NCBI GenBank assembly: GCA_028872955.1
Contig: JAGWNX010000027.1
Coordinates: forward strand, 1 to 39,959
Direction: 5' to 3'
Length of the DNA: 39,959 bases
DNA from: Acidobacteriota bacterium
GTDB lineage: Bacteria; Acidobacteriota; Terriglobia; Terriglobales; Acidobacteriaceae
Below the pieces are notes generated by a model that ran no database searches, was not told the DNA's origin, and was given only the letters and a program-made list of their open reading frames with translations. This document shows, piece after piece, positions 16,395 to 26,504 of the stretch. A program made the translations under genes and the position numbers. Position 1 is the stretch's first letter. Each line of letters begins with the position of its first letter.

Positions 16395-17348
16395 ATGAAT
16401 CGAACTGGATGGAACTTGTTGGCATGGGCGGCAGCGGCGGTGATGTGCGTGCCTATGGCTCAGGCTGCGCAGTTGAGCAGCGACGGCAAGGCGTCGATTC
16501 CGCGTGATGTGCAGCAGCTGATCGTGGTGGACTATCGCGCCATGCAGAACTCCAGCGCCGCCATGGAGTTGAAAGAGCGGATTATGCCGCCCGAGCTGAA
16601 GCGCCTGGAGACGGCCATGAAGACCTCTGGCCTGAAGGTGGATCAGGACGCCGATACCCTGGCGTTTGCCGCCTTCCGCGCGCCGGGCAGCGATGGCACG
16701 CGCATTGTGGGCATCGCTCAGGGCCAGTTCCACACCCGCGAGGTGATGGCGAACTTTACCAAGCAGAAGGTAAAGCCGGTAGTGTTGCGCAACAACAGCA
16801 TCTACCCCATGGGCTCGGCGGGGATGAGCGTGGTCTTTCTGAATCAGACGACGATGGTATTTGGAGATCGCGAGGCCGTGAAGGCTGCGCTGGACGCGCG
16901 CGATGGCCTGACCCAGAGTCTGTTGGCCAACGGTGACATGATGAACGAGATGAACGCCGTAGACAGTCGCGCTATCTGGAGCCTGCTGGACCAGAAGGGC
17001 ACCCAGACGATGATGAAGAGCGTGCTGGGCGAGGCCGCACAGCTGGCAGACTACGATACCGTGCGGAACAGGATGAAGAGTTCGCGATACACCATGGACT
17101 TTCAGAATGGCGTGAAGTTCGATATGGCGGTGGTGATGAGTGATACCATGACCGCTGCCACCGCAGCAACGCTGATGAAGGGCGTCTCGATTTTGCGCAA
17201 GAGCACCGGCACGCCGCTGGAGCGCTCTGCGCTGGATCAGACGACGATCGACTCCAACGCGGGGACGCTTACCGTCTCCTACTCTTCGTCCGATAGCCAG
17301 TTTGCCTCGTTGCTGAGCTCGCCGCTCTTTCAGTCGGTAGTTCGGTAG
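16395..17348 (+). CDS. Exported hypothetical protein
   Basis: Not assigned to a family. The protein has 317 residues and a signal peptide (NRTGWNLLAWAAAAVMCVPMAQAAQ). The mature part starts with PRDVQQLIVVDYRAMQNS, a pattern seen in exported proteins that monitor or report values per item, then alternates short helices and strands (GQFHTREVMANFTKQK, AVDSRAIWSLLDQKG). It is rich in Met, Ser and Thr and has no cysteine in the mature part and no membrane anchor. The ATG at 16395 is chosen over GTG at 16383 because a GAGGG site precedes it at a normal distance. Two hairpins follow the stop, so the gene is probably a single transcript, separate from the flagellar genes downstream. Confidence 0.65.
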   Translation: MNRTGWNLLAWAAAAVMCVPMAQAAQLSSDGKASIPRDVQQLIVVDYRAMQNSSAAMELKERIMPPELKRLETAMKTSGLKVDQDADTLAFAAFRAPGSDGTRIVGIAQGQFHTREVMANFTKQKVKPVVLRNNSIYPMGSAGMSVVFLNQTTMVFGDREAVKAALDARDGLTQSLLANGDMMNEMNAVDSRAIWSLLDQKGTQTMMKSVLGEAAQLADYDTVRNRMKSSRYTMDFQNGVKFDMAVVMSDTMTAATAATLMKGVSILRKSTGTPLERSALDQTTIDSNAGTLTVSYSSSDSQFASLLSSPLFQSVVR

Positions 17349-17378
17349 CACGGCAGCATCACAACCAGCGTCACACAG

Positions 17379-17439
17379 CACCAGCGTCGTTCTACGGCGC
17401 TGGTGGCGAGAGCGGCCTTGCAGCGATGAGGCCGCTTTT
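17379..17439 (+). terminator. Tandem hairpins ending the exported hypothetical gene
   Basis: The first hairpin pairs CACCAGCG (17379-17386) with CGCTGGTG (17398-17405). The second pairs AGCGGCCT (17411-17418) with AGGCCGCT (17429-17436) and is followed by TTTGTT, a typical intrinsic terminator. Confidence 0.75.
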
Positions 17440-17455
17440 GTTGTGTGTGCTGGAT

Positions 17456-17482
17456 TCATGAGCCCGGTGTTGTAGCCGATAA
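17456..17482 (+). promoter_or_regulatory. Sigma-28-like promoter upstream of cheY
   Basis: GCCGATAA at 17475-17482 is a perfect match to the sigma-28 (FliA) -10 element. TCAT lies 15 bases upstream (17456-17459), a partial match to the TAAA/TCAA -35. It is 52 bases before the cheY start and just after the terminator of the previous gene, where a flagellar promoter is expected. Confidence 0.6.
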
Positions 17483-17533
17483 GGCACACGAGAGCTGTGG
17501 GGAGACCGCAGTGGTACCAACCTGGAGGCAGTG

Positions 17534-17911
17534 ATGGCGGGATGTGTCTTGCTTGTAGACGACTCTTCGGTGATGCGGAAGGTTGTGCATCGCACGCTCA
17601 AGATGGCTGGCATGGAGTTTGACGAGGTGCTGGAGGCTGGCGATGGGGCCGAGGCGCTGCAGCGGCTGGATGGCAAGCACGTAGACCTGGTGCTGTGCGA
17701 TATCAACATGCCGAACATGTCGGGGCTGGAGTTTGTGGCCGCAATGCGCACGACCATGCCGGAGAAGAAGGCTCCGGTGGTGATGGTGACGACTGAGGGC
17801 AGCGAGGCGCAGGTGAAGCTGGCGATTGCCGCCGGAGCTACCGCATACGTGCGCAAGCCATTTAGCGTACAGGACTTTGAGCGCAGCGTGAAACCGCTGG
17901 TCGCACGTTAG
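17534..17911 (+). CDS. cheY: CheY-like single-domain response regulator
   Basis: Stand-alone receiver domain of 125 residues. Expected residues are present: the acidic pair D9/D10, the phosphoacceptor D56 in LVLCDINMPNMSG, the T86/T87 switch position and the K108 in YVRKPF. There is no output domain, so signal is passed by protein contact, probably to the flagellar switch. The ATG at 17534 is preferred to the GTG at 17531 because GGAGG at 17524-17528 is at the better distance. It heads the flagellar cluster and is followed 11 bases later by a CheX-like gene, which fits a phosphorylation/dephosphorylation pair. Binding to FliM rather than another target is inference. Confidence 0.88.
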   Translation: MAGCVLLVDDSSVMRKVVHRTLKMAGMEFDEVLEAGDGAEALQRLDGKHVDLVLCDINMPNMSGLEFVAAMRTTMPEKKAPVVMVTTEGSEAQVKLAIAAGATAYVRKPFSVQDFERSVKPLVAR

Positions 17912-17922
17912 GCAGGTACCGG

Positions 17923-18369
17923 ATGAAGAGAGAACATGAGGAACTGAAGAAGTCGCTGGATGAGACGGTGACGCAGATTGTCGGGCAGATCTGGCCGGAT
18001 ACGATGGGCAGCCTCAGTCCGGCGGAGGCTGCCGTATCGGAGCAGGAAGTGGTTCTGGCGCGAATCGAGTTTGCCGGTAGCTTTCAGGGCGAGTGCCGAT
18101 TAGCGATGGTTCCGGAGACGGCTGCGTCGATGGCGTCTGAGATGCTGGGTGGTCCGTGCGCGCCCGACGAGATTCAGGACGCGGCCCAGGAGCTGTGCAA
18201 CATGATTGCGGGGCACTGGAAGGATCAGATGCTGGTGGCGCCGCAGGACTGCGGGCTGGTTCCGTTGGTCGATGCCGAGGATGTCGAGGAGCAGTCGCCT
18301 GCGCTGGCCACGGGCGAGTATCGCTGGCAGCATCACGGTCTGGCCCTGTCGATTCGGCGGCGGGATTAG
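17923..18369 (+). CDS. cheX: CheX/CheC-type CheY-P phosphatase
   Basis: A 148-residue protein of the CheC/CheX/FliY fold, members of which dephosphorylate CheY-P. The diagnostic catalytic motif E-x-x-N is present as E90 and N93, with glycine G97, in AAQELCNMIAGHW. The family's second motif is not evident, which suits the CheX type with one active site per subunit. The protein is acidic and without a signal peptide. It directly follows the response regulator, which is the probable substrate, and precedes flgF. Confidence 0.75.
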   Translation: MKREHEELKKSLDETVTQIVGQIWPDTMGSLSPAEAAVSEQEVVLARIEFAGSFQGECRLAMVPETAASMASEMLGGPCAPDEIQDAAQELCNMIAGHWKDQMLVAPQDCGLVPLVDAEDVEEQSPALATGEYRWQHHGLALSIRRRD

Positions 18370-18389
18370 GCAGCTCTAAGTAAGCGGTG

Positions 18390-18417
18390 GTGCAGCATGG
18401 TACGTGACGTGCTGCAC
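18390..18417. other. Inverted repeat between cheX and flgF
   Basis: GTGCAGCA (18390-18397) and TGCTGCAC (18410-18417) form an 8-bp stem with a 12-base loop, immediately ahead of flgF, whose start at 18426 has no clear ribosome-binding site. It could be a weak terminator or processing site separating cheY-cheX from the rod genes. Confidence 0.5.
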
Positions 18418-18425
18418 TACCGGGC

Positions 18426-19178
18426 ATGGACAGCGGACTCTACGCGGCATACACGGGGCTGATGGCACGGACACAGGCCCTGGATACGACCGCCAATAAT
18501 CTCTCCAATGTATCGACGAATGGCTATCGTGCGCAGCGCGACTTCTTTGCGCACTTCATGCCGCTCGACAGCAACACGCCGGCTGAGTCGCAGGTGGGCG
18601 ACGCGGTCAACGGCTTCAGCGTACTGGGTGGTAATACGCTGGATCTGAGCCAGGGGCAACTGGTCAGTACCGGCAATCCTCTGGATGTCGCGCTGCGCGG
18701 GACGGGCTTCTTTGCCGTCAAGACGCCGGGTGGCGTGCGCTACACGCGTAATGGCTCGTTTGAGCTCTCCAATAGAGGACAACTGCAGACGATGGCGGGC
18801 TACCCGGTGCTGGATGCCGCGTTGAAGCCGATTGTGCTGCCGGCTGGCGAGATCACGATCTCGCGCAGTGGACAGATCTCTGTGCAGACCGGCGACGGCA
18901 ACGGCATTGCAGGGCAGCTGGGGGTGTTTGACTTTGGCAACCCCGCCGCGTTGCAGGCCGAGGGTGCAGATCTGGTCTCTGCCGGAGCCGAGGCCAAGCG
19001 CACCGCGAGCGCGGCAGAGACGATTCAGGGTTCCATCGAGCAATCCAACCAGGATGCCATTCACGGCTCCATGGAACTGGTGCTGGAGCAGAGGCAGGCG
19101 GAGATGATGCAGAAGGCTCTCTCTGTCTTCAACAACGATCTGGACAAGACTGCCAGTGAAGAGCTGAGCAGGGTGTAG
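18426..19178 (+). CDS. flgF: Flagellar proximal-rod protein FlgF
   Basis: A 250-residue rod protein exported by the flagellar type III system. The N-terminus carries the rod signature (TTANNLSNVSTNGYRAQ), a central domain includes NPLDVALRGTGFFAV and YTRNGSFEL, and the C-terminus has the matching helix (HGSMELVLEQRQAEMMQKALS). It is distinguished from FlgG by its lower conservation and by the clear FlgG that follows. The ribosome-binding site is weak. flgG begins 28 bases later. Confidence 0.9.
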   Translation: MDSGLYAAYTGLMARTQALDTTANNLSNVSTNGYRAQRDFFAHFMPLDSNTPAESQVGDAVNGFSVLGGNTLDLSQGQLVSTGNPLDVALRGTGFFAVKTPGGVRYTRNGSFELSNRGQLQTMAGYPVLDAALKPIVLPAGEITISRSGQISVQTGDGNGIAGQLGVFDFGNPAALQAEGADLVSAGAEAKRTASAAETIQGSIEQSNQDAIHGSMELVLEQRQAEMMQKALSVFNNDLDKTASEELSRV

Positions 19179-19206
19179 CCAGGACCAACGCAGCACGGAG
19201 AGAACG

Positions 19207-19995
19207 ATGATTCGAGCACTGTACACAGCGGCCAGCGGCATGAGCGCCCAACAGGCAAATCTGGACACGATTGCCAATAATCTGGCGAACTCGGCAACCT
19301 CGGGCTTTCGCAGTCGACGGCTGGAGTTTGAGGACATGATCTACCAGAACGTGATTACACCCGGGGCCGCTGCCACGCAGCAGACAGCATCCTCTGGCCT
19401 GCAGATTGGCCTGGGCACGCGCACCTCTGCGACCGAGCTGATTATGACGCAGGGCGAGATGAACCAGACCAGCAATCCGCTGGATATGGCGATCCAGGGG
19501 CAGGGCTTCTTCCAGGTGACGATGCCCAACGGCACGCTGGCCTACACCCGCGATGGCAGCTTTCACCTGAACAACCAGGGCGCTCTGGTTACCGCGGATG
19601 GCAATCCTCTGGTGCCCTCCATCACCATTCCGCCGAATGCGACCAACATCTCCATCTCAACGTACGGAGTGGTCACGGCGACGATTCCCGGGCAGAACAC
19701 GGCCTCACAGCTGGGCGTGATCCAGCTGGCCACCTTCCCGAATGCGGGCGGACTCACGTCGCTGGGTGGCAATCTGTTTGCGCAGAGTCCAGCCTCGGGC
19801 AACCCGATTACGGATAATCCCGGAGGCACCAGTGGTGTGGGCACGCTGCAGCAGGGTTACGTGGAGAACTCCAACGTGGACGTGGTGGGCCAGTTTGTGC
19901 AGATGGTGCTGGCCCAGCGCGCATACGAGAGCAACTCCAAAGTGATTCACGTGGCGGACGACATGTACTCGCAGGTGAATGGCCTGGTGCGGTAG
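19207..19995 (+). CDS. flgG: Flagellar distal-rod protein FlgG
   Basis: A 262-residue distal-rod subunit. It begins MIRALYTAASGMSAQQANLD and carries NNLANSATSGFRSRRLEFEDM, NPLDMAIQGQGFFQV, YTRDGSFHLN and the C-terminal SNVDVVGQFVQMVLAQRAYESN, all FlgG features. A good ribosome-binding site (GGAGAG) precedes the ATG. The flgA gene overlaps or touches its stop. Confidence 0.95.
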   Translation: MIRALYTAASGMSAQQANLDTIANNLANSATSGFRSRRLEFEDMIYQNVITPGAAATQQTASSGLQIGLGTRTSATELIMTQGEMNQTSNPLDMAIQGQGFFQVTMPNGTLAYTRDGSFHLNNQGALVTADGNPLVPSITIPPNATNISISTYGVVTATIPGQNTASQLGVIQLATFPNAGGLTSLGGNLFAQSPASGNPITDNPGGTSGVGTLQQGYVENSNVDVVGQFVQMVLAQRAYESNSKVIHVADDMYSQVNGLVR

Positions 19996-19997
19996 TG

Positions 19998-20381
19998 ATG
20001 ACGAGTGTGCTCCCAGGGCTGGCCTGGCTGCTGCTGGCACCGTTGGCCGGTGGTACGGCACCGCCCGGCTGGTGTATGCAGGCGCAGCCCGGCCACACGG
20101 ACTGGCCAGCGCGCTGGCAGCGCACCGACTGCAGCGCTGCCACGGCGGATGCCTCCACGGTGCGTTCGACCGCCGTGGTGCAATCCGGCCAACAGGTTCT
20201 GGTGCAGGAGGCGGCCGGGCAGGAGGTGATGACCCTGCGTGGTCGAGCTTTGCAGGCAGGCCGGGCGGGGCAGTCGATCACGGTCGAGTTGCAGGGGCAC
20301 TTCCTGTGGGATGGCAGTGCTGAGCGGGTGGTGGTGCGGGCACGTGTTTTGGATGCGCAGACGGTTGAGGTGCAGTGGTAA
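19998..20381 (+). CDS. flgA: Short FlgA-like P-ring assembly chaperone
   Basis: FlgA is a periplasmic chaperone for P-ring assembly. This protein has only about 127 residues, against more than 200 in E. coli. It has a signal sequence (SVLPGLAWLLLAPLAGG) and then a SAF-like beta domain: GQQVLVQEAAGQEVMTLRGRALQ and RARVLDAQTVEVQW, the usual C-terminal module. Most of the N-terminal domain is missing. The ATG at 19998 is two bases after the flgG stop (TAGTGATG); the overlapping GTG at 19995 is possible. Position between flgG and flgH supports the call. Confidence 0.78.
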   Translation: MTSVLPGLAWLLLAPLAGGTAPPGWCMQAQPGHTDWPARWQRTDCSAATADASTVRSTAVVQSGQQVLVQEAAGQEVMTLRGRALQAGRAGQSITVELQGHFLWDGSAERVVVRARVLDAQTVEVQW

Positions 20382-20397
20382 GCGAGTGAGGCGAGCG

Positions 20398-21138
20398 ATG
20401 GCAATACCAAGAGACAGAGGCAGGACAACCCGGGGCTTGAGCTTTGCAGGGTGCGTGCTTTCGGCAGCGCTTCTGCACGCACAGCAGCCCGTAGGCACGC
20501 TGCAGGATACGCGACCGCGCACGGTGACCGAGACCTCGCTGGAGGAGTATCTGAAACGGGTGAACGCCAACCAAGAGAACGAGCGAAGCACGCCGGGATC
20601 TGTGTGGACCGAGCGCGCACGCTTTGCCAATCTGGCGGCGGATACCCGTGCGGTGCAGGTGCATGACCTGATCTCGGTGGTGGTCTCGGAGAGTATTGCG
20701 GCCTCGACGGACGACACGGTGAACAACACGCGCAAGTCGAATGCGAACACTCAGGTGTCGTCGCTGATTGGCGCACTGCACGGCGGCAACGCCTTGCAGA
20801 ACCTGGTGAATCAGAACTCTGCCAGCGGGCTGACGGCGACAGGACAGAGCGCCACGAACACCAGTCTGAGCACCGTCTTTGGTGGCCAGGTCGTGGCTGT
20901 GCTGCCGAACGGAATACTGGTGATTGAGGCGGCGCGGCAAGTGGAGTTCAGCCAGCAGAAGCAGACGATTGTGCTGCGCGGACTGGTGCGGCCCGAGGAT
21001 ATCTCGCAGCAGAATCAGATTCTGTCGACGGCGATCTCTGACATGGAGCTGATGGTGAAGGGGTCCGGTATCAATACGGACTTTACCCATCGTCAGACAC
21101 CGCTGGTCCGTCTGTTGCAGCGATTGCTTGTGTTCTAG
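20398..21138 (+). CDS. flgH: Flagellar L-ring protein FlgH
   Basis: Builds the L-ring in the outer membrane. The 246-residue protein shows the family pattern: SVWTERARFANLAADTRA, VHDLISVVVSESIAAST, and VVAVLPNGILVIEAARQVEF, followed by a C-terminal strand region. Most FlgH proteins are lipoproteins; here the only early cysteine lies in FAGC, a poor lipobox, and the hydrophobic run continues to LLHA-QQ, which looks like a signal peptidase I site. The start at 20398 is set by this signal sequence; the open frame further upstream overlaps flgA. Confidence 0.9.
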   Translation: MAIPRDRGRTTRGLSFAGCVLSAALLHAQQPVGTLQDTRPRTVTETSLEEYLKRVNANQENERSTPGSVWTERARFANLAADTRAVQVHDLISVVVSESIAASTDDTVNNTRKSNANTQVSSLIGALHGGNALQNLVNQNSASGLTATGQSATNTSLSTVFGGQVVAVLPNGILVIEAARQVEFSQQKQTIVLRGLVRPEDISQQNQILSTAISDMELMVKGSGINTDFTHRQTPLVRLLQRLLVF

Positions 21139-21168
21139 CCCAGGGCGACGCGCCAGGAGGGAGTTCGG

Positions 21169-22305
21169 ATGAGGATACGTGGCAGGGCTTGGCTACTGAT
21201 GGGTGCCGTGGCGATGTTGGGAAGCGCAGCGCGCGCGACCGATCTTCCGGCGGGGAATAGCGGCGCACCCGTGACGCATGTGCCGATCAAGGATATCTCG
21301 ACCGTTGAGGGTATCCGCGACAACCAGCTGGTGGGTTACGGCATTGTCGTGGGCCTGGCGGGAACCGGAGACAGCCAGCAGACGACCTTTCCGATGCAGA
21401 CGCTGGCGGCCACACTGTTGCGCATGGGCGTGAGTGTGCCGGCGGCCTCAATCCGCGTGCAGAACCTGGCGGCGGTGTTTGTCGAGGCAAGTCTGCCCGC
21501 GTTCTCTAAGCCGGGCTCGAAGGTTGATGTCACGGTCTCCTCGGCTGGTGATGCGCGCAGCCTGGAGGGCGGCCTGTTGCTGATGACGCCGCTCTACGGT
21601 GCGGATGGCCGGGTGTATGTGCAGGCACAGGGGCCGCTGGTGGTAGGCGGCTACTCGGTGGCCTCGGGTGGCAGCTCCAAGCAGGTGAATCACCCGAACA
21701 CGGCGCGTATTCCGCTGGGGGGAATTGTGGAGCGCGGGGTCACGGTGGATCTGACTGCGCTGGACCAGATGACCGTGGTGCTGAACGATGCGGACTTCCG
21801 CACCGCAGAGTCTGTGGCAACCGCGATCAACACGGCGATGGAGCGCAGCCTGGCGCATGTAGTGGATAGCAGGAACGTGCGCATCACGGTGGCCCATGGC
21901 GAGGATGTGCCCGCATTGATGGCGAGGATCGAGTCGATCGATGTGCCGGTGTATCCACGCGCCAAGGTCGTCATCAACGAGCGAACGGGCACAGTGGTGA
22001 TTGGGGGCACGGTAGGGCTGCAGCCGGTGTCGATTCTGCACGGCGGCCTGACGGTGGATGTGGTGACGACGGCGCAGTTTGAGACGGATCGCATGGGCAT
22101 GCAATCGCACACGGAGGGCCAGCAGGTGACCCAGATTAATAGTCAGGAGAAGCCAGTGGATCGGATTGAGCTGAAGGCCGGTGCCACGGTGGATGATCTG
22201 GTCCGGAATCTGCAGTTGATTGGGGCCACGGCGCGGGATGTGATCTCGATTCTGCAGGCGATGAAAGCGGCGGGTGCGCTGGAAGCGGAGATTGAGGTGC
22301 TATGA
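21169..22305 (+). CDS. flgI: Flagellar P-ring protein FlgI
   Basis: Periplasmic P-ring subunit, 378 residues, with a signal peptide (RAWLLMGAVAMLGSAARA). Family motifs are clear: GIRDNQLVGYGIVVGLAGTGD, NLAAVFVEASLPAFSKPG, LLMTPLYGADGRVYVQAQGPL, GGIVERGV and the C-terminal VDDLVRNLQLIGATARDVISILQAMK region (motifs given in parts). AGGAGGGAG precedes the ATG. The stop overlaps the next start by four bases (ATGA). Confidence 0.96.
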   Translation: MRIRGRAWLLMGAVAMLGSAARATDLPAGNSGAPVTHVPIKDISTVEGIRDNQLVGYGIVVGLAGTGDSQQTTFPMQTLAATLLRMGVSVPAASIRVQNLAAVFVEASLPAFSKPGSKVDVTVSSAGDARSLEGGLLLMTPLYGADGRVYVQAQGPLVVGGYSVASGGSSKQVNHPNTARIPLGGIVERGVTVDLTALDQMTVVLNDADFRTAESVATAINTAMERSLAHVVDSRNVRITVAHGEDVPALMARIESIDVPVYPRAKVVINERTGTVVIGGTVGLQPVSILHGGLTVDVVTTAQFETDRMGMQSHTEGQQVTQINSQEKPVDRIELKAGATVDDLVRNLQLIGATARDVISILQAMKAAGALEAEIEVL

Positions 22306-22679
22306 GTAGCAGCCTGGTTGCGATGGTTCAGGCTCCATCCGGCGTTGGGGGACAGCACGGCAGTGCGCCGCCGGGCAGGCTGCAGCAGGCCGCCAACGAG
22401 TTCGAGGCCAGTCTGTTGCAGGCCATTCTGCAGCCGGTGATGCGCGGGGGCTCGCTGACCGGCAGCACGGCCGAGGGCAACGACTCTGGCGAGGGTGAGG
22501 GGAGTGTGCTGGACAGCTATCGCGTGCAGGCGCTGGCCAGTGCGCTGGCGCAGAAGGGCGGGCTGGGACTCTCGCAGCTGGTGCAGCGTGAGGTGGGAGC
22601 AGAGGCAGCGGCGCATGACCGCGCCCGGCAGGCGGCCCAGGGCGTGAGCGGCTCCCACATAGGAACAAATCATTACTAA
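22302..22679 (+). CDS. flgJ: Single-domain FlgJ rod-binding protein
   Basis: A 125-residue protein equivalent to the N-terminal half of FlgJ, the rod-cap/rod-binding domain. The conserved core is AANEFEASLLQAILQPVMRGG and the SYRVQALASALAQKGGLGLSQLV helix. The muramidase domain of enterobacterial FlgJ is absent, as in many other phyla, so the cell must open peptidoglycan with a separate enzyme. It overlaps flgI by four bases. Its 3' end lies over the -35 box of the flgM promoter. Confidence 0.88.
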   Translation: MSSSLVAMVQAPSGVGGQHGSAPPGRLQQAANEFEASLLQAILQPVMRGGSLTGSTAEGNDSGEGEGSVLDSYRVQALASALAQKGGLGLSQLVQREVGAEAAAHDRARQAAQGVSGSHIGTNHY

Positions 22680-22703
22680 AGTGTTGCGAGTTGCTGCCGA
22701 TGA
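22677..22703 (+). promoter_or_regulatory. Sigma-28-like promoter for flgM-flgK-flgL
   Basis: TAAA (22677-22680), a 15-base spacer and GCCGATGA (22696-22703) match the sigma-28 consensus TAAA-N15-GCCGATAA at 11 of 12 positions; the longer -35 form TAAAGTTT matches at seven of eight. RNA would start near 22710, before the GGAGG (22716-22720) of flgM. It begins at the end of flgJ. Confidence 0.75.
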
Positions 22704-22725
22704 ACTGAAGTATACGGAGGCTGAG

Positions 22726-23034
22726 ATGAGTTTCTTCAGTGTCAATATGGGGATGCAGAGCGCGATTACAGGACTTGCGGCAACGGACAGAGCACAGGCT
22801 GGGAGTGCTGCGGGCAGCAGCTCCTCTGCCACGCAGGCACAGGGCGGAGTTGCCGACCAGGCGCAGCTAAGCCAGTCTGGCGCATTGCTGGCGCAGTCGG
22901 ACGGGGATGCGAGCGTCCGCGAGGCGCGCGTGAGTGCCCTGCAGGCGGCCGTGCAGAGTGGCACCTATCACGTCTCTGCCGGGGCAGTAGCCGATGCGCT
23001 GGTAACGCACATGCTGAACATGGGACAGCGGTAG
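22726..23034 (+). CDS. flgM: Anti-sigma-28 factor FlgM
   Basis: FlgM holds sigma-28 inactive until the hook is finished and then leaves the cell through the flagellar export channel. The 102-residue protein is disordered and Ala/Gly/Ser/Gln-rich in its first 60 residues. The conserved sigma-binding helices are at the end (VREARVSALQAAVQSGTYHV, then GAVADALVTHML). The ATG at 22726 follows GGAGG at 22716-22720 by five bases. A longer frame from GTG 22681 is rejected because the promoter-like -10 element lies inside it. It precedes flgK, as in many bacteria. Confidence 0.88.
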   Translation: MSFFSVNMGMQSAITGLAATDRAQAGSAAGSSSSATQAQGGVADQAQLSQSGALLAQSDGDASVREARVSALQAAVQSGTYHVSAGAVADALVTHMLNMGQR

Positions 23035-23071
23035 AAGAACATGCCGGCAGAGCCGGTGATGGGGGCTGAGG

Positions 23072-24475
23072 ATGGCAACACTCACTTCGCTGATCGATGC
23101 GTCGACAGCAGCCTTGCAGGCTGACCAGGTCGCGCTGGATGCAACGTCGAACAACGTAGCGAACCAGGGAACGGCCGGGTATACGCGGCAGACCGTGCAG
23201 TTTCAAAGCGCCGATGTCGTGTCGCTTGGCAATGGCCAGTACAGCACGGTGGTGACCGCGCAGGCCGTCTCCCAGCGGAATCGTGTCCTGGAGCAGATGG
23301 TGCAGCAGCAGGCGCAGGCGCAGTCGCAGAGCAGCGCCATTGCAGCGGCGTACCAGCAGATTGAGGCGGTCTTCCAGCTCTCGTCGAGCTCCAGTGCGGC
23401 AGCGGGCACGCAGCTGGGCGTCGCGTTGAACGGATTCTTCAGCAGCCTGACCAGTCTCAGCGCTAATCCGTCAGACCCGGCGACGCAGCAGAGTGTGCTG
23501 AGCAGCGCGCAGACGCTGGTTGGAGCCTTCAACGGTGCGGCCAGCCAGTTGACGCAGATCACGGACAGCATCAACCAGACGGTTCCCTCCGTTGTAGGCC
23601 AGGTGAACGCGCTGACCAAGACGATTGCCGGACTGAACCAGCAGATCGCTCAGCTGAGCCCGGGGCAGGATGCCGGCACGCTGGAGGATCAGCGCCAGGC
23701 AGCGATTGCGCAGCTCTCGCAGTACATCGGGCTGGATCAGATCTCCAGCAGCGGCAACGGTATTACGTTGGCCACCACCAGCGGAACGCTGCTGGTGGGC
23801 GATGCGACCTCGTATCCGTTGGGTACGGTGGCGCATCTGGGCAATACGGATGTTCTGGATGCGAGCGGCAACGACATCACGGCTTCGCTGACGGGCAATG
23901 GCGGACAGCTGGGTGGCATGTTCCGCGTGCGCAGCCAGGTGTTGCCGGGCATCAGCAGCGCACTGGACACGCTGGCATACAACCTTGCCACAGCCGTGAA
24001 TGCGCAAAATCAGAGCGGTGTGAACTCCAGTGGTGTGGCGGGTCTGGCCCTATTCGGAGTAAGCGGTGTGGCCGGGGCGGCGGGCAGTCTGTCGCTTGCC
24101 GCCAGCTCAACCGCCGCGCTGGCCCCGGCAGCGGCGGGGCAGGGCTCTGCCGGCAACACCAACGCGCAGGCGCTGGCCGGCCTGGCTAACACGCCGCTGG
24201 TGGGCGGTCAGAGTGCCTCGGGTGCGCTGGCGGCCTTGCTGGGACAGATTGGTGCCAGTGCAGCCGGAGCCAGCCAGGACGCGAGCGCGCAGCAGGCCCG
24301 GCTGACGACCCTGACCACGCAGCGCGACTCGTATTCGGCGGTCTCGCTGGATCAGGAGGCTGCCAACCTGACGCAGTATCAGCGCTCCTACGAGGCGGCG
24401 GCCAAGGTCTTTACGATTGCCGACACGATGATGGCAGCAGCGCTGAACCTGGGCGTGGCGACGGCGGTCTCGTAA
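23072..24475 (+). CDS. flgK: Hook-filament junction protein FlgK (HAP1)
   Basis: First hook-associated protein between hook and filament. The 467-residue protein has the rod/hook-type N-terminal helix (LDATSNNVANQGTAGYTRQTV) and the C-terminal helix typical of FlgK (LDQEAANLTQYQRSYEAAAKVF). The middle is long and Ala/Ser/Gly-rich, with sections such as LAALLGQIGASAAGAS that are less conserved. Length is toward the short side for FlgK. It lies between flgM and flgL, probably in the same sigma-28 transcript. Confidence 0.94.
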   Translation: MATLTSLIDASTAALQADQVALDATSNNVANQGTAGYTRQTVQFQSADVVSLGNGQYSTVVTAQAVSQRNRVLEQMVQQQAQAQSQSSAIAAAYQQIEAVFQLSSSSSAAAGTQLGVALNGFFSSLTSLSANPSDPATQQSVLSSAQTLVGAFNGAASQLTQITDSINQTVPSVVGQVNALTKTIAGLNQQIAQLSPGQDAGTLEDQRQAAIAQLSQYIGLDQISSSGNGITLATTSGTLLVGDATSYPLGTVAHLGNTDVLDASGNDITASLTGNGGQLGGMFRVRSQVLPGISSALDTLAYNLATAVNAQNQSGVNSSGVAGLALFGVSGVAGAAGSLSLAASSTAALAPAAAGQGSAGNTNAQALAGLANTPLVGGQSASGALAALLGQIGASAAGASQDASAQQARLTTLTTQRDSYSAVSLDQEAANLTQYQRSYEAAAKVFTIADTMMAAALNLGVATAVS

Positions 24476-24533
24476 AGCAGGGCTGGTAACGCAGGGCACG
24501 GTCGCAGGCAAAGCAAGCAAGCGGAGAGAGAAG

Positions 24534-25436
24534 ATGACCAGTTTTGATCCGAAGTATCTGCAGTCGCTGAGTGGGTCGATCTCGCAGTCCACGGCACTGG
24601 AGCAGTCGTTGACGACCGAGCTCTCCAGCGGGCTGGCCATCAGCAGCCTGCAGGATAATCCGGTGGCCGTGGCGCAGAGCCAGCTGCTGGGGGCCTCGAT
24701 TGCGCAGCAGGACACGTTTGTGCAGACCGCCAGTGGTCTGCAGTCCAGGCTGCAGGTGGCAGACTCCACCCTGGGCGAGATTGTGTCGCAGCTCACCAAG
24801 GCGGAGTCGCTGGCCGTGCAGGGCAACGGCGGCACGCTAAGCGCCAGCAATCTGCAGGCGGTGCAGCAGCAGCTGCAGGGCATTCAGCAGCAGGTGCTCT
24901 CGCTGATCAATACGTCGTATCAGGGGTCCTTCCTGTTTGGCGGCAGTCAGGGGAGCACTGCTCCCTTTGCCGTGAACAGCACAACAGGAGCCGTCACCTA
25001 CAGCGGCGACAATGCCGTAACGTATGTGACGACGCCCGAGGGTCAGCAGATCCAGACGAACCTGCCTGGCTCTGCTGCCTTCGGCACAGGTGCGAGCGGA
25101 GTGCTGGGCGTGCTTTCGAGCCTGATCCAGGACTTCGCGGGGAGTACACCCTCGACGACCGCAGTCAGCGACTCGTCGGCGCTGACCTCGGCGCTGGCCC
25201 AGGTCTCTGCGCAGCGCAGTGTGTTGGGCAATTCGTTGAGCCGCATCGCCAGCGCGAGCACGTATACGCAGAGCACGGCCGCGCAGCTGACCGCGGCGCA
25301 GAGTTCGCTGGTGGCAGCGGACACGGCGCGGGTGGCCACGCAGCTGAGCATGGCCGAGACGCAGCACCAGGCGCTGCTGAACGTGACCGCTGCGCTGGAA
25401 GGCAGCGGAAACTCGCTCTTCAGCTACATCAAGTAG
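24534..25436 (+). CDS. flgL: Hook-filament junction protein FlgL (HAP3)
   Basis: Second hook-associated protein, related to flagellin. The 300-residue protein has a flagellin-like N-terminal helix region (LTTELSSGLAISSLQDNPVAVAQ), an FLFGGSQGSTAPF segment in the variable part and a flagellin-like C-terminal helix (ARVATQLSMAETQHQALLNV). GGAGAGAG precedes the ATG. No csrA or fliW gene follows, although those often do; a small unknown gene is there instead. Confidence 0.93.
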   Translation: MTSFDPKYLQSLSGSISQSTALEQSLTTELSSGLAISSLQDNPVAVAQSQLLGASIAQQDTFVQTASGLQSRLQVADSTLGEIVSQLTKAESLAVQGNGGTLSASNLQAVQQQLQGIQQQVLSLINTSYQGSFLFGGSQGSTAPFAVNSTTGAVTYSGDNAVTYVTTPEGQQIQTNLPGSAAFGTGASGVLGVLSSLIQDFAGSTPSTTAVSDSSALTSALAQVSAQRSVLGNSLSRIASASTYTQSTAAQLTAAQSSLVAADTARVATQLSMAETQHQALLNVTAALEGSGNSLFSYIK

Positions 25437-25537
25437 AGCCAGCAGTGCGGCGGGTGTGTCCATCGGGTTGAGCTTTGTTGCGCTTTCAGCGAGACTGAAG
25501 GCATGGTTGACCTGGTTGCATCCAAGGTGGTGGGCTG

Positions 25538-25768
25538 ATGTACTGGCTGCGTTTTCTATGGAACGCGACGCGTGGTCATCGGCTGCGTCCCTGGCGGAGC
25601 CCCTATCTTCGGTGGCGCATGGAGACCTATAGCGGAAGGCCTGCCGATCAGTTGCGGCTGCGTGACTTCCGCGAGGTGATGGTGCGCGACCGGATGCAGT
25701 TTGTGCGGTTTCTGCGCTGGACGGAGGAACTGGGCGAGCTGGCCCACCGCAAGGGGCCGGAGGCCTAG
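25538..25768 (+). CDS. Small basic hypothetical protein after flgL
   Basis: Not recognised. A 76-residue protein rich in Arg, Trp and Leu (YWLRFLWNATRGHRLRPWRS), with a middle segment DQLRLRDFREVMVRDRMQ that looks like an amphipathic helix. No signal peptide and no transmembrane segment. It begins 101 bases after flgL on the same strand; GGTGGTGGG precedes the ATG. Base composition is like its neighbours. Where many flagellar clusters have csrA or fliW, this gene stands; whether it is expressed with the flagellar genes is unknown. Confidence 0.55.
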   Translation: MYWLRFLWNATRGHRLRPWRSPYLRWRMETYSGRPADQLRLRDFREVMVRDRMQFVRFLRWTEELGELAHRKGPEA

Positions 25769-25938
25769 CCGGGCGTTTGCGCTAAGCAACCTGGATTCAG
25801 CCGGTTGGACACTGTGCTCGACGGGGGATGCTGTGCTGGTGCCAAGGGCACAAAATTTCCCCGGGGAGTGGGCCGCAGTGGTATCTTTAATCAGACACTA
25901 AGAAGAGTGGACTAGACGAGTTAGGAGTACTAAGAGCA

Positions 25939-26205
25939 GTGTTGGCATCGGCGAAGAAGACAGATTTGATTGAGAAGTTCCGTACGCATGAATCGGACAC
26001 CGGGAGCCCGGAGGTTCAGATCGCTATCCTGAGCGAGCGTATCGGTCAGTTGACGGAGCACTTCAAGACGCACAAGAAGGATCACGGCTCTCGCCGTGGC
26101 CTGCTCATGCTGGTGAGCAAGCGTCGCCGTCTGCTGGATTACCTGAAGCGTAACGACGCAGATCGCTACCGCGATGTGATCGGCAAGCTGGGCATCCGCA
26201 AGTAA
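25939..26205 (+). CDS. rpsO: Small ribosomal subunit protein uS15
   Basis: Primary 16S rRNA-binding protein of the small subunit. The 88-residue protein shows the family sequence: [43 protein letters not shown] and [22 protein letters not shown]. The GTG start is the only one giving the full N-terminus; GGAG at 25923-25926 is slightly distant (12 bases). The rpsO-pnp order is widespread. A 299-base spacer with a terminator separates it from pnp. Confidence 0.96.
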
Positions 26206-26504
26206 GCACACTACCGCCGGAGATCCCGGAGACAAGTTCCGTACATGGAAACGCCCCTGCTCCCAATACCCTGTGCAGACGTGCCCACGCTGAGGCTGGC
26301 GTGACGCAGCGTGCGCTGGGTGGGAGGCAGCGGGCCGTGCTCCATGCGAGTGCGCAGAGACCCGGCAGGAACCCCTACGAGGATTCAAACGAGAGTGCAG
26401 CTTTGCAAGCGGCTGATTAGCCCGCCCATGCGAAGCTGCTTTTTTGTTGCTGGCCGCGCGCAATGACTTTCCTAGAACAAGAAGACGAGAAGACGAGGAA
26501 CAAC
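26206..26504 (+). other. Structured rpsO-pnp spacer
   Basis: No protein gene is seen. The first 190 bases are rich in inverted repeats, for example CACGCTG (26286-26292) with CAGCGTG (26307-26313), and CTCCCA pairing with TGGGAG nearby. An intrinsic terminator is at 26397-26445. The last 60 bases are purine-rich and contain the pnp ribosome-binding site GAGGAA (26495-26500). It may hold an sRNA, or a pnp leader of the kind processed by RNase III in other bacteria; I recognised no known riboswitch or 6S RNA. Confidence 0.45.
26397..26445 (+). terminator. Intrinsic terminator between rpsO and pnp
   Basis: GCAGCTTTGCA (26397-26407) pairs with TGCGAAGCTGC (26429-26439) over 11 positions with one G-T pair, followed by six T residues (26440-26445). 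It lies 60 bases before the pnp start, so it may end rpsO transcripts or act as an attenuator for pnp. Confidence 0.85.

Follow-up and report, generated by a model that had tools for sequence, protein, structure and literature searches.

Positions 22677-22703 of the window, the whole 39,959-nucleotide stretch of acidobacterial DNA analysed here, very probably form a class 3 (late) flagellar promoter for FliA (sigma-28) polymerase, from which a transcript beginning near 22710 would carry flgM, flgK and flgL. Three lines of evidence bear on this reading, namely the sequence of the site itself, its conservation before flgM and before fliC of the genus, and a FliA encoded in the same genome. Taken together, they uphold the earlier note's description of a near-canonical sigma-28 promoter.

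Elements of the probable promoter and neighbouring genes

The site matches TAAA-N15-GCCGATAA at 11 of 12 bases. Its -10 element agrees with GCCGATAA at seven of eight positions and stands at exactly the right spacing, 15 bases from TAAA and 11 between the octamers, while the -35 octamer carries the TAAA of TAAA(GTTT). Between the -10 and the flgM ATG we count 22 bases rather than the 23 previously given. The transcription start was placed from the usual distance between a -10 element and the start. The features, all on the + strand, are as follows.

22677..22684, +: -35 element TAAA (22677-22680) within the octamer TAAAGTGT; from sequence, with TAAAGT conserved in the alignment
22681..22695, +: spacer of 15 bases, conserved little past its first four bases and containing the GTG at 22681
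22696..22703, +: -10 element GCCGATGA; from sequence, motif scans and alignment
22708..22711, +: predicted transcription start
22716..22720, +: GGAGG, likely ribosome binding site, in the leader ctgaagtatacggagg
22302..22679, +: flgJ-like rod-binding protein with weak matches, its 3' end overlapping the promoter; PF10135 17.1 bits (cut-off 25.1), FlgJ model 20.3 (cut-off 193)
22726..23034, +: flgM, anti-sigma-28 factor of 102 aa with an ATG start; TIGR03824 45.8 bits (cut-off 40.75), PF04316 43.1 (cut-off 25)
23072..24475, +: flgK, hook-associated protein; TIGR02492 283.7 bits (cut-off 170.75)
24534..25436, +: flgL, hook-associated protein; TIGR02550 151.7 bits (cut-off 127.2)

All three genes behind the promoter score above curated family cut-offs, which confirms the identities given to them in the earlier note. 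The leader resembles a pattern, tcaagtagacggagg, found in many relatives. FlgI, FlgH and two genes resembling FlgE/F/G lie upstream of the flgJ-like frame. Immediately ahead of the flg genes, 17531-18369 encodes a CheY-like receiver protein and a CheX phosphatase. A search of 17300-26500 for a sigma-70-like site found none, and no terminator-like site was found on the + strand from flgJ to flgL. The terminator scan returned four sites against 3.8 in shuffles, with none on the + strand behind flgL, and thus says little about where the transcript would end.

Conservation upstream of flgM

Relatives were sought with FlgI: among 12, the nearest were Edaphobacter sp., E. modestus and another acidobacterium (69-71% identity), and the other nine were enterobacteria (38-40%). 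FlgM was found in 35 of 61 genomes searched, and 30 loci among the matches listed were used; a class-wide search with PF04316 matched 77 of 151 genomes, and 27 of its 30 listed loci were added, the remaining three coming from genomes already included. We scanned the 400 bases upstream of these 57 listed flgM loci, with 596 other 400-base windows of the same loci as control. Ten or more of the 12 bases match at 50/57 listed flgM loci compared to 8/596 control windows, and 11 or more at 38/57 compared to 1/596. Seven loci (L039, L042, L237, L252, L254, L262 and L265) have no match of at least 10 at the 15-base spacer, and a few other flgM loci are better fitted by a spacer of 16 bases.

For base-by-base comparison, 27 sequences were aligned: that of the window, 25 from the genus and one from a different family. 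Omitting three loci (L039, L041 and L042) makes the footprint cleaner than in the whole set. The best-kept columns are TACTAAAGT (TAC-TAAAGT-n-T) and GCCGAT. Of these, TAAAGT and GCCGAT hardly vary at all, whereas the spacer is variable over most of its length. Some A-rich columns before the motif and the GGAGG-like columns after it are kept less well.

Flagellin genes as positive control

Flagellin matches were obtained in 36 of 41 genomes of the genus, and 30 listed loci were scanned over 400 bases upstream. At least 10 of 12 bases match at 29/30 of these loci, compared to 10/348 control windows, so that among the matches listed the motif occupies the expected position before both late flagellar genes, flgM and flagellin.

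The fliC leader in the genus (L137-L165) is roughly 105-150 bases long with a conserved 5' part. With 27 of the 30 aligned, a seven-pair long-range helix has 97.4% of cells paired compared to 94.4% in shuffles (0/500 as high), a structure derived from the same alignment that was used to score the pairing. One pair changes from GC to AU in 6/27 sequences, possibly in one lineage. Rfam searches of seven fliC loci and one flgM locus gave no match up to E = 1.

Motif scans and FliA in the same genome

In the draft genome of 3,480,206 bases, TAAA-N15-GCCGATRA has a single exact match, which is the flgM site. There are a further 24 sites with one mismatch, and a reversed control pattern gives 11 matches in all. 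Only two of the 25 exact and one-mismatch sites, the flgM site and C149:37831-37857, are intergenic (background 0.10) as called by a rough codon-usage gene finder; as a group, the one-mismatch sites other than flgM therefore show no sign of being promoters. The genome search proposed in the earlier note thus returns the flgM site exactly and lends no support to a wider regulon in this organism. A scan allowing two mismatches gave 231 sites compared to 123 for the control and is too loose beyond its first rows. These top rows hold two exact and 13 one-mismatch sites, among which, by eye, a convincing ribosome site and a close ATG follow flgM and L087 only. The second exact site of that scan (C172:7890-7914, ending GCCGATC) was rejected; it lies inside long open frames.

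FliA is encoded at C74:28852-29511 (253.6 bits, cut-off 189.6), the sole match above cut-off, with six others below. Its residues 56-282 align (E 9.8e-53) with the FliA chain of PDB 6pmi, which we take to be that of E. coli. The aligned region spans RIRGA.LD.LR..DW.PR..RR..R, whose arginines presumably touch the -10.

Searching the same genome with PF00669 and with a relative's FliC matched the FlgL gene alone. We rejected absence of flagellin from the organism: fliD is truncated where contig C53 ends (L266), and in both relatives checked fliD follows fliC, so that fliC of this genome most likely fell into an assembly gap.

Alternative explanations

Loose matches to the motif are common, and a scan of the window with TAAA-N15-GCCGATAA gives 13 sites at up to three mismatches compared to 7.2 expected from shuffles. 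The site could on that basis be chance sequence at a gene junction, with flgM transcribed only together with the upstream flg genes. We regard this as very improbable, given how often the match recurs at the listed flgM loci relative to control windows and that no other exact TAAA-N15-GCCGATRA site exists in the genome. In the window itself, the flgM site is the only one with one mismatch; of the others, two differ at two positions and ten at three. A different source of constraint is the end of flgJ: the TAA at 22677-22679 within the -35 also terminates the flgJ-like frame (22302-22679), and some relatives likewise have a frame of 60 codons or more ending at that point, so the bases might be conserved for coding or for the stop codon and not for sigma-28. 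In other relatives, however, TAAAGT is kept even though the closest long frame stops several bases short of it or past it, and the same elements precede fliC, where there is no flgJ. Conservation for flgJ is accordingly very improbable, and we retain the reading of a sigma-28 promoter.

The promoter also bears on where flgM begins. As previously noted, a longer flgM frame with the promoter inside its 5' end does exist, open from the GTG at 22681 and adding 15 residues. That flgM begins at this GTG is nevertheless highly unlikely: 24 of 29 listed relatives have no open in-frame start upstream of the end of the -10 (the exceptions being L039, L044, L055, L059 and L060), and by manual count an ATG lies 20-25 bases past the -10 in 24/29 listed relatives (L039, with a poor motif, was not counted). 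The comparison of sequences supports a start at ATG 22726, with GTG 22681 not a conserved start. The earlier note had chosen the same ATG and considered the start settled by the promoter; the choice appears right, while the promoter alone is insufficient because a transcript running on from flgJ could include the GTG, and the relatives provide the stronger argument.

Comparison with known flagellar systems

FlgM and FliA are a known pair, in which FlgM inhibits sigma-28. The E. coli sigma-28 consensus is TAAAGTTT-n11-GCCGATAA (PMC2859248). The E. coli FliA promoters and the window share both elements and their spacing (PMC2859248), and FliA is present in the genome here. The window departs from this consensus (PMC2859248) in having G as the seventh base of both its -35 octamer (TAAAGTGT) and its -10 (GCCGATGA). 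This -10 variant also precedes 25/30 listed flagellin genes of the genus; the change from A to G is thus common within the group.

The arrangement also resembles that of flgM in Salmonella, sharing a late promoter dedicated to flgM and, probably, read-through from early genes; the order in the window, early flagellar genes first and then flgM with its own late promoter, fits that mechanism. The Salmonella gene is in an operon with flgN, whereas in the window flgI and a flgJ-like gene precede flgM, and flgK and flgL follow. A narrow search of open-licence literature on flagellar sigma-28/FliA regulation in Acidobacteria and on flgM in Edaphobacter returned nothing relevant, a weak negative.

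Sites elsewhere in the genus

For counting regulon members we used the strict pattern TAAAGT-N13-GCCGATR, which matches in 33 of 41 genus genomes, with 0-4 sites each except in genomes G019 and G026. The other 39 contain 61 sites, where the reversed control has 17. A FlgM match follows within 400 bases at 23 of the 61 and a flagellin match at 13, which leaves 25 in other places, and at this control level many of the sites away from FlgM and flagellin may be chance. Sigma-28 promoters further from consensus than the strict pattern may also exist.

G019 (L166-L190) has 25 strict sites and G026 has six, each with a control of 0; among 151 class genomes, which do not include these two, the maximum is five. 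In G019, 17/25 sites are intergenic (background 0.18), and the frames 7 to 268 bases behind sites include flgM, lon and topA as well as those of an MCP, an Hpt protein, a Clp-type ATPase, two peptidases and a protein kinase; several other sites are followed by a frame without a family or have no gene in the right place. The genome has two FliA above cut-off and, judging from these sites, apparently an enlarged sigma-28-type regulon. In G026, the frames behind sites include motA and a GGDEF protein. Open-licence literature searched for a FliA regulon with lon/clpC yielded nothing, again a weak negative.

In the window's own genome, the L087 site (C178:4399-4423) reads TAACGTTTG-N11-GCCGAT, with one mismatch in TAAA. 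The frame behind it (L087:1148-1471) encodes 107 aa and carries RRPTxxQGxALExLxxAxEYL; Pfam gives nothing for it up to E 0.1, and its sole NCBIfam match is irrelevant. Homologs lie close behind exact TAAAGT-N13-GCCGATR sites in G001 (L109), G022 (L272) and G026 (L194), the last with a weak DUF6683 match below cut-off. The copies of G001 and G022 are 75% identical, so the four genomes represent perhaps three lineages. These homologs were sought among loci already in the analysis, many of them chosen for holding the motif, and are a lead and not a census.

We put forward tentatively, as somewhat less than an even bet, that most members of the genus have reduced their sigma-28 regulon to a few strict promoters (those of flgM-flgK-flgL, of fliC and, in certain members, of a small protein without a known family), which leaves the anti-sigma gene among the main targets of the factor it inhibits, and that in G019 the same promoter has spread to 25 places, including positions ahead of lon, topA and the gene for a Clp-type ATPase.

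Proposed mechanism and implications

We propose that the promoter sits at the flgJ/flgM junction, its -35 overlapping the flgJ stop, and that FliA polymerase would start a transcript there, near 22710. Early FlgM would probably come from transcripts reading through from the flg genes further upstream. On completion of the hook-basal body, FlgM would be exported and FliA freed, and the freed FliA would in turn draw from the promoter further FlgM as well as the hook-filament junction proteins. By analogy with the known pair, we infer a feedback loop between FlgM and FliA.

The promoter and FlgM circuit are of a known textbook kind, here in an acidobacterium, and the promoter itself is an ordinary kind of element; perhaps less expected for specialists are the sites of G019, the small protein and the fliC leader. 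TAAAGT-N13-GCCGATR provides a motif with which to seek the sigma-28 regulon in this group. The FliA-FlgM checkpoint, known from enterobacteria, would be extended to an acidobacterium, where comparison of relatives gives a clean footprint.
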